A stretch of 58,813 nt of DNA from Nanobdellota archaeon (GTDB lineage Archaea; Nanobdellota; Nanobdellia; Pacearchaeales; GW2011-AR1). Position 1 is the stretch's first letter, and every line of letters starts with the position of its first letter. The DNA lies in assembly GCA_013329055.1 (NCBI GenBank), contig DUKY01000009.1, positions 1 through 58,813 on the forward strand, written 5' to 3'. Positions 3,497 to 48,168 of this stretch are shown in pieces. The translations under genes were made by a program, and so were the position numbers. Below the pieces are notes generated by a model. It did no database searches. It had not been told where the DNA came from and saw nothing but the letters and a program-made list of their open reading frames with translations.

Positions 3497-3937
3497 TTAC
3501 TTTATTCTTTTTAATTCAGATTGTTTTAGTCTTCCAGTTCTAATACTTTTTTTTGAAAGATTTAAATTTTGACCTAAATAAGAAGCATGTGCACATAATC
3601 CCACAATTAATTCTTCCCCGCCATTATAACGATTAAAATAAGCTTCTTCAATTTCTTTTTTTGTAATTGAATAAACAGATTTTAAATAAATTATTTCGCT
3701 GCTTAAATACATTTCATATTCATCAACTAATCTTCTGCACTCTCTTGTGCATTCATGAAAGTCTCTTCTTAGTTTAATATCATAATTCTCTTTTTCAGTT
3801 TCAATCTTATTTTTAATATTTTTTAATTTTAACAATTGTAAAGTCATATTAGGAATCAATCTTTTTCTGGTCAAAAAATTCTCCTGATCCATAATTCCGT
3901 ACATACGATTTCCGAGATTTTCTTCTAAATTACCCAT
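3497..3937 (-). CDS. Hypothetical helical protein
   Basis: Unrecognised protein of 146 aa, starting from the ATG at 3935-3937. A longer TTG start at 3955 adds only six residues and is less likely. It is rich in Lys and Glu with predicted long helices (about 40-110) and no membrane segment. Cysteine pairs occur in HECTREC (near 63-70) and CAHAS. It lies just upstream of ogt on the same strand, so co-transcription is likely. No function is proposed. Confidence 0.55.
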   Translation of the reverse strand: MGNLEENLGNRMYGIMDQENFLTRKRLIPNMTLQLLKLKNIKNKIETEKENYDIKLRRDFHECTRECRRLVDEYEMYLSSEIIYLKSVYSITKKEIEEAYFNRYNGGEELIVGLCAHASYLGQNLNLSKKSIRTGRLKQSELKRIK

Positions 3938-9736: not shown

Positions 9737-10621
9737 CTATTTTTTAGAACTTACAATCAAATTAATCTTTTGTCCAAACATTTTTGATGCTTTTTTTATA
9801 TATTCTTTGATATTTTGCTTAAAGTATGGTTTATTTTGCTTTTGGATTTGACCTATTAAGTAATAGGAATATGCAATAAATCCCGCATAATTCAAATCTT
9901 TTGGAAGGGATAAATTTAGTCTATTTTTACCGAAAATGTTGTTTTTTTGTCCTAAACTAATAAAAAGTTCTGTATTTGAACTTACAATTGTTTCTGCATG
10001 TTTTGTATGTTCAAATGTGAAAACTCGTGCTGAGATTTTTGACCCGAAAAGTTCTTCAAATTTTGTTAATAGCATGTTTGATGCAAGATAGAACTTTTCC
10101 GGAATTATTATGTAAAATGCATCATATTTTTTCAAATCTTTTGGTATTTTTTTTGAATTTTCTTGAATAAATTTCAAAATTTTTGTTGGATTTTCACCTG
10201 TTTTAGAAAAAATCATGCTTAGATATGTTGAAATATTATAAGTGTAAGGTTCAGGATTTTCAGGGAAAATATATGTTTTGTCTGCATATTTTTTTGCAAT
10301 TGCATTTGGATTATTTGTTAATAATACTATTTTTATCCCTTTTTCTTTGAGTTTTTTAGCGATTTTTGGTGCATGTTTTCCCCCAAAAGAAGAAATTATA
10401 ACACTTCCATCAATATCTTTTAATTTCTTTAAATAATCACTTTCATCTGCAAAAACTGCATTTGTTCCTTCAAATAATATCTTTCCCACATGAAATGCAT
10501 TACCGCTCCCAATAACTAATGGTTTTTTAAAAGTGCAGAATTTATCTATTTTTTTGATTGGTTTTTTGGTAAAAGTATTCAAAGCATTAATTACACCTTC
10601 ATCCAAATTAATGATTTCCAT
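9737..10621 (-). CDS. SIS-domain protein (sugar isomerase-like)
   Basis: Phosphosugar-binding protein with a SIS fold. GSGNAFHVGKIL (39-50) and the second segment SVIISSFGGKHAPKIAKKLKEKG, then IVLLTNNPNA, show the typical strand, Ser-rich loop, helix order. Such proteins isomerise or deaminate phosphosugars or sense them. It sits between two structured repeat mosaics and the sugar genes, which fits a role in glucan or amino-sugar metabolism; the precise reaction is unknown. The start is the ATG at 10619-10621. About 41 bases of its upstream region are duplicated at 10963-11004. Confidence 0.7.
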   Translation of the reverse strand: MEIINLDEGVINALNTFTKKPIKKIDKFCTFKKPLVIGSGNAFHVGKILFEGTNAVFADESDYLKKLKDIDGSVIISSFGGKHAPKIAKKLKEKGIKIVLLTNNPNAIAKKYADKTYIFPENPEPYTYNISTYLSMIFSKTGENPTKILKFIQENSKKIPKDLKKYDAFYIIIPEKFYLASNMLLTKFEELFGSKISARVFTFEHTKHAETIVSSNTELFISLGQKNNIFGKNRLNLSLPKDLNYAGFIAYSYYLIGQIQKQNKPYFKQNIKEYIKKASKMFGQKINLIVSSKK

Positions 10622-10647: not shown

Positions 10648-10689
10648 ATAAATGTACTTTTTTAAACGATTTTTTTGTATTTTTATTTT
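10648..10689. repeat. Direct repeat, left copy (SIS gene promoter side)
   Basis: This stretch of about 42 bases begins ATAAATGTACTTTTTTAAA. It recurs at 10963-11004 with one mismatch (C against T). The two copies bracket a structured repeat mosaic, as expected if the mosaic was inserted with duplication of its target. The left copy lies in the upstream region of the SIS-domain gene. Confidence 0.8.
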
Positions 10690-10930
10690 TTTTAAGATTT
10701 AACAATCCCCCTGAATTTCTTTACTTGAATTTTATTTCCCACATTTTCTCGTAACCTCGCATGATGAAAAAAGCATACAAAGATTTTAACAAATCCCCTT
10801 TTAATCTTGAATTTTTCCCACATCCCCCAAATTATTACTAAAGTAATAATTTGCCTTTAAGTCGTTAAAATCTTATTGATTGTATGCTTTTTTTATTATT
10901 TCTACCCTGTTAAAAATAATTTTTTGAAAA
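10685..10930 (+). repeat. Structured repeat mosaic 2 (nested module B)
   Basis: An outer bracket AAGATTTAAC (10694-10703) with a partner near GTTAAA (10909-10914) encloses a complete module B (10767-10894). The module B outer stem is AAAAAAGCATACA/TGTATGCTTTTTT, the inner stem GATTTTAAC/GTTAAAATC and the hairpin AAATTATTAC/GTAATAATTT. Its stem sequences differ from those at 9467-9593, yet pairing is kept on both sides. Confidence 0.85.
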
Positions 10931-10962
10931 CTTTGAAATAAAACTCTCAGACAGAGCCCAAA

Positions 10963-11004
10963 ATAAATGTACTTTTTTAAATGATTTTTTTGTATTTTTA
11001 TTTT
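10963..11004. repeat. Direct repeat, right copy
   Basis: Second copy of the roughly 41-base repeat at 10648-10689 (one mismatch). It lies between the structured mosaic and the glycogen synthase-like gene. The rest of 10931-11119 shows only an AT-rich promoter region. Confidence 0.8.
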
Positions 11005-11119: not shown

Positions 11120-12337
11120 GTGGTGAAAGTTTTGATGTTTGGCTGGGAATTTCCTCCGTTTCATACGGGTGGTCTTGGCACTGCTTGTGAAGGTTTAACC
11201 AAATGTTTAAGTAAAAACGGAGTTGAATTAATTTTTGTTTTACCAAAAAAATTGGACTTAAATGTTGATTTTTTAAAAGTAGTTTATGCTGATGATAATA
11301 TTCCAATTAAAAAACAATATTATTTTAATTCAATAATTCAAGGTTATACTACGCATAAAAGTTATGAAAATAAATATGAATTGGAAAAAGAAAAAGATTT
11401 AATTTATGCTTCTAATTTAAATGAAGAAGTTGAACGTTATGGTTTAGTTGCAAAAAGAATTGCAGAGGAAGAAACCTTTGATATTATTCATGCTCATGAT
11501 TGGTTAACTTTTAAGGCCGGAATGATGGCAAAAAGAGTTTCAGGAAAAAAATTAGTTGTTCATGTTCATGCTACTGAATTTGATAGATGTGGCGGACAAG
11601 GCTGTAACCAGCATGTTTATGATATTGAAAAAAAGGGAATGCAGGAAGCAGACCAAATTATTGCGATTAGTGATTATACAAAAAAACAAATTGTAAAACA
11701 TTATGGCATTTCTCCAAAGAAAGTAATTGTTATTCATAATGGAACGCAATTTGAAGAATTTATTTTAAATGAAGTTTCTAATTTGAAAAAAAGTAAAAAG
11801 ATTGTTCTTTCATTAGGCAGAATAACTTTGCAAAAAGGTATTGATTACCTTATATCTGCGGCGAGAATTGTTTTGAAGTATGACCGCAATGTAATTTTTG
11901 TGATTGCCGGTAATGGTGATATGTATGAAGAAATTGTTCGTAAAGTTAGTGATATGGGAATTGCTGATAATTTTATTTTTACCGGTTGGGTTAAAGATAA
12001 AAATGAGATTAAAAAAATGTATAGCATGGCTGATCTTTTTATTATGCCTTCTGTTTCTGAGCCTTTTGGTTTAGTTCCTTTGGAAGCTCAAATGTGCGGA
12101 ACTCCGTCGTTAATTTCAAAACAATCCGGTGTTGCTGAAATTTTTTCTAATTGTTTGAAGGCGGATTTTTGGGATGTTAATGATATGGCGGATAAAATTG
12201 TTGCGGTGTTAAAATATAATGAACTTCATAAAACGTTAAATGAAAATGGTAAAGAAGAAGTAAAAAAATTGACTTGGGATAAACCTGCTGTTCGTTGCAT
12301 GGATTTATATAAAAAGATGATGGAGGAGGTAAATTAA
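11120..12337 (+). CDS. Glycogen synthase-like glycosyltransferase (GT4/GT5 fold)
   Basis: GT-B glycosyltransferase, probably extending an alpha-1,4-glucan from a nucleotide sugar. The N-terminal domain opens with FGWEFPPFHTGGLGTACEGL (the GGLG donor loop of glycogen synthases) and has HAHDWLTFKAG. The C-terminal domain has SLGRITLQKGIDYLI and the E-x7-E motif EPFGLVPLE. The start is GTG at 11120 (a second GTG follows); an ATG at 11118 is out of frame. A TATA-like TTTAATATAAGG is about 20 bases upstream. Its stop overlaps the GH57 start (TAATG). First gene of the glucan operon. Confidence 0.85.
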   Translation: MVKVLMFGWEFPPFHTGGLGTACEGLTKCLSKNGVELIFVLPKKLDLNVDFLKVVYADDNIPIKKQYYFNSIIQGYTTHKSYENKYELEKEKDLIYASNLNEEVERYGLVAKRIAEEETFDIIHAHDWLTFKAGMMAKRVSGKKLVVHVHATEFDRCGGQGCNQHVYDIEKKGMQEADQIIAISDYTKKQIVKHYGISPKKVIVIHNGTQFEEFILNEVSNLKKSKKIVLSLGRITLQKGIDYLISAARIVLKYDRNVIFVIAGNGDMYEEIVRKVSDMGIADNFIFTGWVKDKNEIKKMYSMADLFIMPSVSEPFGLVPLEAQMCGTPSLISKQSGVAEIFSNCLKADFWDVNDMADKIVAVLKYNELHKTLNENGKEEVKKLTWDKPAVRCMDLYKKMMEEVN

Positions 12338-24729: not shown

Positions 24730-25190
24730 TTCTTTCTCATAACCTCGCACGAAACTTTAATGATGAAAAAAGCATACAAAGATTTTAACAAATCCCCTTT
24801 TAATCTTGAATTTTTCCCACATCCCCCAAATTATTCCTAAAGTAATAATTTGCCTTTAAGCAGTTAAAATCTTATTATTAAACACACTTTTTTATTTTTT
24901 ACTTGCATTTAAGCCCCTTCTCGTAACCTCGCACGAAACTTTGTGGATTATTGTTTCTACCACGAAGTTATTCTACTCCTAACCTGTGAAAACTTGCTTT
25001 AAATCAAGAAAAAATTTTGATTTATTGGCAATTTTCAAAGTTACTCGCCCCCATCATTATTAAAATAATAATTTGCCTTTAAGCTATAGAGAATTATAAA
25101 ATAATTCTCTAACAAGTAAACTAAACAAACGTTAATATCAATTAGTTTACTTTGTTAAAATCTTAATTATTAAAAAATAATTTTTATCTT
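24730..25190 (+). repeat. Structured repeat mosaic 3 (modules B, E, F, D, C)
   Basis: Module B (24764-24893) is a hybrid: its left outer arm reads GCATACA but its right arm AACACAC, so the outer stem cannot pair, while the inner stem can. Module E (24923-24970) pairs GTAACCTCG..GAAAC with GTTTC..CACGAAGTTA. Module F (about 24978-25035) has AAATCAA/TTGATTT. Near the end, module D (25089-25109, GAGAATTAT/ATAATTCTC) and module C (25115-25151, AGTAAACTAA/TTAGTTTACT) sit between GCCTTTAAGC and GTTAAAATC. No gene is seen. Confidence 0.8.
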
Positions 25191-37055: not shown

Positions 37056-37075
37056 TTATTAATTATTCCTTAATT
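37056..37075. repeat. 20-base direct repeat, left copy
   Basis: TTATTAATTATTCCTTAATT here recurs exactly at 37596-37615. The copies bracket a structured repeat mosaic of about 520 bases; the left one lies in the upstream region of the methyltransferase gene. Confidence 0.85.
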
Positions 37076-37595: not shown

Positions 37596-37615
37596 TTATT
37601 AATTATTCCTTAATT
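37596..37615. repeat. 20-base direct repeat, right copy
   Basis: Exact copy of 37056-37075. It covers the stop codon and last codons of the gene at 37599-38075, so the presumed target was the end of that gene. Confidence 0.85.
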
Positions 37616-38075
37616 GTTCTTCAAGATTATACTTTCTTAAATATTCTTTTGCTTCTTCTGCTTCAGGATGTGTTTCAATAAATCTTTTAATTTTTAAAAA
37701 TTCTTTTTTTGATAATCTTGTTGTTTCTTCTAAATCTTTTGGTTGAAATAATCTTTCAATAAATATCCATGTATGTTTTTTTCCATATTCATAATCTTTT
37801 TGACTCATCCAGTATGGGGGTCCAAATGATATCTGATGAAAAATATAATTTTTTTCATTATCTTTTAATTCTTTTTCAAAGATATAAACATCGATTTCAG
37901 GTAATCCTGGAATGATTCTCTTATTTTTGTCTTGAATGTTAGTCTTTTGATATCCTTTATCTTTAAGAATTAATCCTGGTTCTAACCTTGATCTTTCAGA
38001 TATCTTCTTTAGTTTGCTATATCTTTGATTGTGTCTTTGAAATTTATAAAAATCGTCTTTAGTGATTTCTTCCAT
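37599..38075 (-). CDS. Paralogue 1 of an unrecognised family
   Basis: Unknown protein of 158 aa, the shortest of three tandem relatives (others at 38386 and 39059). Shared blocks are LEPGLILKDKGYQ, IIPGLPEIDVYIFEKE, ISFGPPYWM, GKKHTWIFIE and the end EFLKIKRFIETHPEAEEAKEYLRKYNLEEQL. It lacks the N-terminal Cys segment of the other two. Soluble, mixed strand and helix. Its last codons lie in a 20-base direct repeat next to a structured mosaic. No function is proposed. Confidence 0.65.
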   Translation of the reverse strand: MEEITKDDFYKFQRHNQRYSKLKKISERSRLEPGLILKDKGYQKTNIQDKNKRIIPGLPEIDVYIFEKELKDNEKNYIFHQISFGPPYWMSQKDYEYGKKHTWIFIERLFQPKDLEETTRLSKKEFLKIKRFIETHPEAEEAKEYLRKYNLEEQLRNN

Positions 38076-47523: not shown

Positions 47524-47597
47524 GGCCCCGTAGCTCAGCCTGGTAGAGCACTTGACTTTTAATCAAGGTGTCGCGGGTTCGAATCCCGTCGAGGTCA
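47524..47597 (+). tRNA. tRNA-Lys (UUU)
   Basis: D-arm and anticodon arm CTTGA/TCAAG with loop CTTTTAA (anticodon TTT at 47558-47560) are regular, as is the T-arm GCGGG/CCCGT with loop TTCGAAT. The acceptor GGCCCCG/CGAGGTC has a G-U pair at 2-71 and a C5-A68 mismatch. The mismatch might be left by integration that swapped the 3' end, or might be fixed by editing. Discriminator A47597; no encoded CCA. Two broken copies of its 3' end follow downstream. Confidence 0.92.
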
Positions 47598-47639
47598 TAT
47601 AACCTATTTGTAAAACAAATAGGTTGATTTGTTGTGATT

Positions 47640-48168
47640 CTAACTTGAGTAAATTCAAAAAATATTTTAAAAGTCGCGGGCGAGTAACTTTGTGGTAGAA
47701 ACTTAATTTTTCAAATAAGAATTCAAATATAAATAAAAAAGTTTCGTGCGAAGTTATGAGCAGAATCCCGTCGAGGTCATAATCTTTTGAAGATTTTAGG
47801 ATTCTCACTAAAAGACACCCGCTGGTTTCCTCAGAAAATTTAAAAAAACGAAATTTTCTGGGACATTCAAAAGATGATACTTTTGAAGTTTTTAAACTTC
47901 CTCAAATTGTGGAGCGGTGACATTTTATTGAGCCTTCTGCAATATCACTTGGAACTCTAATTTTTTATTTTGATTTGAAGGTCCTAAAAAATTTCAAAGA
48001 AATTTTTTGGACTTTAATTGGCGTTACAATTAAAGTGTTCGAATCACTTCAAATGCACTGTCTTTTGAGGTATTGAAATTCCAACTGGGATTTAAATGCT
48101 AAAAAATCTTTGATTTTTTATGTCCCAGAGAATTTAAATAAAATTCTCTGAGCCTCGAGATCATAATA
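47640..48168 (+). repeat. Repeat mosaic behind tRNA-Lys with two broken tRNA 3' copies
   Basis: First copy: GTCGCGGG (about 47673-47680), then a reverse-oriented module E (CGAGTAACTTTGTGG .. GTTTCGTGCGAAGTT), then GAATCCCGTCGAGGTCAT (to about 47780). Next come module A-like hairpins (GTGACATT 47917-47924/AATATCAC 47941-47948). Second copy: GTTCGAATC (48037-48045), a 107-base insert, and CCTCGAGATCA (48153-48163). The insert starts ACTTCAAATGCACTGT and ends in a CAGAGAAT/ATTCTCTG-type hairpin, as behind tRNA-Ser. No gene is seen in 47598-48336. Confidence 0.7.

Follow-up and report, generated by a model that had tools for sequence, protein, structure and literature searches.

A 42 nt direct repeat brackets a hairpin-rich mosaic in the spacer between a SIS-domain gene and a divergent glycosyltransferase gene, an arrangement for which target duplication upon insertion is a well-supported explanation. 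In a pairwise comparison, the left copy (R1) and the right copy (R2) were identical at 41 of 42 positions, the sole mismatch being a C/T difference at repeat position 20, and their starts are offset by 315 nt. Repeats of about 41 bases with one mismatch had been predicted from the window (the whole stretch of 58,813 nucleotides analyzed here), and this was borne out. When up to three mismatches were allowed, the 42-mer was detected at exactly two places in the window and never in 100 shuffles, and in the source genome (1.19 Mb) R1 and R2 were the only occurrences. No match was obtained in the 180 other family genomes or in the viral contigs that were searched. The repeat is thus confined to R1 and R2 in the genome and the family rather than widespread at mosaic-free sites, the latter being the outcome that the original prediction had named as evidence against itself, and the site has the bracketing direct repeats, absent elsewhere, that mark an insertion. 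R1 and R2 diverge at 1 site in 42 (95% interval 0.1-12.6%) and the best-conserved core of the insert shows 2 private changes in 112 sites; although the test is weak, these divergences are compatible with a single event.

R1 begins 26 nt from the SIS gene's start codon and overlaps the TATA-like sequence TTTATATA, which is located 28 nt from that codon, in agreement with the predicted position of the left copy upstream of this gene. R2 is located 115 nt upstream of the glycosyltransferase gene and points away from it, and that gene has its own TATA-like sequence closer to its start. Both genes are archaeal-type. The spacer between them measures 498 nt, and 183 nt once the insert and one repeat copy are subtracted. 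The 42 nt repeat itself is a weak, imperfect palindrome.

Table 1. Features of the bracketed insertion, its host locus and a comparison case in the window
Feature	Positions	Strand	Remarks
SIS-domain gene adjoining R1	9737-10621	-	Pfam SIS 25.8 bits (cut-off 25)
R1, left copy of the 42 nt repeat	10648-10689	+	overlaps TATA-like sequence upstream of the SIS gene
Outer hairpin module, left arm	10685-10704	+	tip (GAAAAATTG-type) missing; run of T joins R1
Inserted element, truncated MITE with nested hairpin modules	10690-10958	+	genomic copies, right terminus, fold z
Inner nested hairpin module	10761-10899	+	arms 10761-10780 and 10880-10899; apical hairpin 10828-10853
Outer hairpin module, right-arm remnant	10908-10928	+	
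Surviving MITE terminal inverted repeat	10944-10958	-	GGCTCTGTCTGAGAG on minus strand; alignment to MITE end
Gap CAAA (4 nt) from terminus to R2	10959-10962		sequence
R2, right copy of the 42 nt repeat	10963-11004	+	one mismatch
Glycosyltransferase gene, 3' of R2	11120-12337	+	divergent from SIS gene
Comparison case, 20 nt repeat left of another island	37056-37075		displaced 3'-end copy of gene 37599-38075
Comparison case, native counterpart of that 20 nt repeat	37596-37615		overlaps last 17 nt of gene 37599-38075 (minus)

The mosaic that the original prediction had placed between the repeats was confirmed. Homology to other mosaic copies starts at 10685, right at the left repeat, and ends at 10906, a further hairpin arm extends the mosaic to about 10928, and a transposon terminus follows at the right edge. 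The stretch 10690-10962 is hairpin-rich DNA (fold z = -4.8). R1 abuts the mosaic directly; R2 lies 4 nt past the terminus and is not flush with it. The right edge reads ...CTCTCAGACAGAGCC, and its other strand, GGCTCTGTCTGAGAGTTTT, matches one end, GGCTCTGTCCAGAGTTTTT, of a MITE family whose ends in the source genome are GGYTCTGTCCAGA. This alignment scored 14, a value reached by 5 of 20000 random sites. The terminus is diverged, and its subtype and orientation are those expected for the contig, with the same orientation as the other copies there. Terminal inverted repeats at both ends are found in the family as a whole, whereas at this site the right terminus is present and the left one is missing. 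Since only one terminus remains, we read the copy as a truncated, one-ended MITE derivative with nested modules.

Modules of the mosaic recur at dozens of places in the source genome. The mosaic core was absent from the GTDB and viral contigs, and the family genomes gave weak AT-rich matches only. In the assembly (85% complete), no donor near-identical across the whole mosaic was found, the best reaching 87%. A known RNA was dropped as an explanation of the mosaic, as Rfam gave tRNAs only. The outer stems of the inner module vary among copies (10761, 24760, 37340, 64886 and others) and are mostly still complementary, with pairs such as GCATAC/GTATGC, GTGTGT/ACACAC and GCGTAT/ATACGC; the copy at 24760 looks hybrid, with mismatched arms. 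The mosaic core has 26 good matches, all of which fall on 5 of the 26 contigs (in the window, e.g. 9549, 10850, 24849, 27159, 31348, 35566, 37453 and 37548) and keep a single strand per contig, plus on C18, C19 and C21 and minus on C13 and C14, regardless of the direction of neighboring genes. The sign of the overall GC skew of these contigs matches the core strand. This strand bias suggests that insertion or retention is linked to replication direction.

Direct repeats in the outer flanks were scored at every MITE terminus in the genome stretches carrying the repeats. In this MITE and in a sister family, two-ended copies mostly show 9 nt target duplications abutting both ends (TAACGATAT, ATTAATTAC, TCAACAACC, GTTTATAAA, GTTTAAAAT, TTTTTAATG, TCTAACTCC and others). 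Three further two-ended copies have a duplication matching at 8 of 9 positions, and those at C14:15457 and C18:49558 have no clear one. Two termini stood far beyond the rest, and both belong to copies with one recognisable end: the one described here (42 nt, offset 4 from the terminus) and C18:133356, where an exact 46 nt repeat abuts the terminus at offset 0. These are the two one-ended copies with long repeats known here. The 46 nt repeat comprises a whole intergenic spacer, from the stop codon to the start codon of the next gene. A third one-ended copy, C18:67119, has a repeat of about 15 nt with one mismatch. A 42 nt duplication is unusual for an element family whose normal duplication is 9 nt, and the short fixed-length duplication expected of a MITE is thus not seen at this site. 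The sister MITE family has the ends GGCTTTGTAGAAAG and 8-10 nt duplications at several copies, and was also observed at C25:3542, C23:62519, C18:173986, C15:18251 and C11:24227, on contigs without the mosaic core.

Flanking direct repeats were also analyzed at the mosaic islands. Of 51 islands (289 kb), 4 have repeats scoring at least 20, whereas 4000 random placements away from islands predict 0.19. The four include C21:15066, where gene starts form a tandem array; it was rejected as a simple target duplication, as were the flanking repeats at C13:25325 and C21:3213, which are duplicated stretches near tRNA genes. Most islands lack a long flanking repeat above chance, and of the 9-10 nt matches seen at many of them, those that do not abut a terminus are at chance level. 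Bracket lengths of 9, 20, 21, 42 and 46 nt were found. The exact 20 nt bracket at 37056/37596 in the window came from a wider search than the 51-island count; its left copy carries the last codons of the neighboring gene and is therefore a duplicate, not an old native copy. Near tRNA genes, a 3' end (19-20 nt, 47581-47600) is repeated 182 nt downstream (47763-47782), with a reversed hairpin module in between that ends at most 4 nt from the second copy. The same reversed module is bracketed by a 144 nt direct repeat beside a tRNA gene (C21:3213-3356 and 3515-3658).

The original prediction held that relatives lacking the mosaic should have a single copy of the repeat. Of the other family members, 17 yielded SIS homologues, and spacer synteny was taken from this family search, the glycosyltransferase relatives in GTDB being too distant for spacer comparison. 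The divergent glycosyltransferase neighbor is kept in three relatives, with spacers of 92, 112 and 133 nt that contain no mosaic and no internal repeat (best internal repeat score 6-7, compared with 39 here). Mosaic-free relatives that retain both copies, named in advance as contrary evidence, were thus not encountered among the three. At about 50-56% protein identity these relatives are too distant for the 42-mer to be recognised, so they speak against both copies being native and stop short of demonstrating exactly one. The single-copy expectation was borne out at a sister insertion (C13:35627/35744), where a 21 nt repeat lies inside a methyltransferase-like gene and the insert is in frame: the segment PEVMIVE occurs once in all 18 aligned relatives and twice, around the insert, in the source genome. 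The palindromic module there (C13:35627-35764; L040:15627-15764) results in a protein insertion that the 18 relatives lack, and similar translated module copies occur in other reading frames, e.g. C13:29976 in an 861 aa frame.

A search of the assembly (85% complete) for three transposase families revealed no PF03400 (IS1-type) and no PF01797 (Y1/HUH), and for PF01609 (DDE_Tnp_1) one decayed fragment below the cut-off. This fragment (C18:116005-116166) is the sole transposase trace among the three families, which yielded no complete transposase or cognate autonomous element.

The unique bracketing repeat, the excess of such repeats at islands, the short spacers of relatives and the sister site with a single copy in relatives make target duplication upon insertion well supported; with the MITE terminus 4 nt from R2 and the repeat-free relatives, this part of the original prediction is supported. 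As to how the duplication arose, we consider it somewhat more probable than not that an aberrant, one-ended MITE insertion expanded the target duplication. A MITE-type element, with nested modules already aboard or invading later, would have inserted into the compact spacer, its right end (10944-10958) being joined at or near the terminal inverted repeat. The other end would have been lost and sealed to the target at a short T-rich microhomology, and the event would also have copied 42 nt of target to both sides instead of the usual 9. The route may have comprised strand transfer of one end, target-primed copying of the element and abortive capture of the far target strand, with a second join made by repair that would account for both the longer duplication and the lost end. 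We infer the order of these steps, the union of duplication and insertion in one event, and the enzyme. The outcome would resemble one-ended transposition or an "insertion with long target duplication". As the duplication leaves each gene its own flank, it may explain why the insertion survived.

The chief rival, to which we assign roughly a one-in-four standing, is a later template switch at a normal insertion: the MITE would have inserted with its 9 nt duplication, and a template switch or gene conversion between the flanks would then have replaced the left end and extended the repeat to 42 nt. It accords with the 9 nt norm of the family and with C18:133356, where the last 9 nt of the 46 nt repeat sit where a canonical duplication would and the repeat starts in sequence resembling a normal MITE right end; moreover, both truncated ends join at AT-rich similarity. 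However, an older 9 nt duplication within a repeat formed later should be no worse a match than the remainder, and here the 9 nt beside the terminus (CAAAATAAA) match their left counterpart (ATATATAAA) at only 6 of 9 positions, compared with 41 of 42 for the repeat, which weakens this explanation; it also requires two events. Less probable again is a local tandem duplication unrelated to insertion, e.g. by hairpin slippage, with the mosaic coming to lie between the copies through secondary deletion or later insertion. Arrays with module copies do exist (C21:15066, and C21:3213 near a tRNA gene), yet no second mosaic copy or remnant follows the right repeat, and this explanation predicts neither the excess of bracketing repeats at islands nor anchoring at a MITE end. 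A functional duplication giving two promoter or operator copies, or chance similarity of AT-rich DNA, appears highly improbable: the overlap of R1 with the TATA-like box of the SIS gene and the weak palindromy of the repeat would fit, in contrast to the empty shuffles, the orientation of R2 away from a gene with a nearer TATA-like sequence of its own, and the retention of the gene pair in relatives without any repeat.

Just as improbable is transposition of the whole mosaic as one unit with a regular duplication of about 41 nt. Some module combinations do recur, and the junction ATGATGAAAAAAGCATAC is common to the islands at 24760 and 60135 and to the one described here, so parts of the nest may, judging from this junction, sometimes be copied together. 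Against a unit, full-length relatives of the element carry 9 nt duplications, bracket lengths are not constant, and bracketing repeats above chance are missing from most islands. Module combinations differ between islands, and nested modules enter one another without duplication at clean junctions (e.g. CCCACAT|CCCC and GTGGAT|TATT). Together with the missing end, these observations leave unsupported the proposal in the original prediction that the mosaic moves as a unit.

The aberrant one-ended insertion can be compared with described elements. Like prokaryotic MITEs, the family is short, non-coding, multicopy and hairpin-forming, with terminal inverted repeats and 9 nt duplications when two-ended; unlike them, the copy studied here is one-ended, has a 42 nt duplication and is packed with further nested hairpin modules (PMC10969869). 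Long, variable direct repeats of 8-514 bp beside transposon ends were described for IS1549/IS1634, without a mechanistic model, in a family whose usual duplication is 5-6 bp (PMC2266710). Duplication length there also varies by copy, up to tens of nt (PMC2266710), whereas here a long repeat accompanies the loss of an end and copies with both ends keep to 9 nt; no transposase of the IS1634 kind is linked to the element, the one trace in the 85% complete assembly being the decayed DDE_Tnp_1 fragment. The IS200/IS605-derived REP-like elements, which lack a target duplication and depend on a Y1 HUH transposase, differ in that a duplication is present here and PF01797 is absent from the assembly. 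Aberrant one-ended IS insertion is a described route, and one-ended IS1 products kept 9 bp duplications (PMC3031569). "Insertion with long target duplication" (Nobusato et al., 2000, as cited in PMC3031569) likewise involves inserts flanked by long, variable target duplications, although the cases in that citing account are restriction-modification units and plasmids in bacteria. The in-frame module at C13:35627 resembles in form the Rickettsia palindromic elements, which are palindromic and about 100-150 bp long (PMC10969869); the host is unrelated and a 21 nt target duplication is visible here.

The site described here is an unusual variant of known transposon behavior. The length of a target duplication is normally a fixed fingerprint of the transposase, and here one element group leaves a 9 nt fingerprint at two-ended copies versus 42-46 nt at two copies missing an end. 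More speculatively, a one-ended, target-primed process in a compact archaeal-type genome might yield variable duplications of 20-46 nt, the survivors being those in which an entire promoter or gene end is duplicated and both neighbors would thereby keep their control DNA. The results suggest that the nested hairpin mosaic of the source genome is in large part mobile-element debris rather than fixed regulatory structure, and they make the site a sharp, testable case for asking how one-ended insertions come to be resolved and why densely packed promoters tolerate long duplications.
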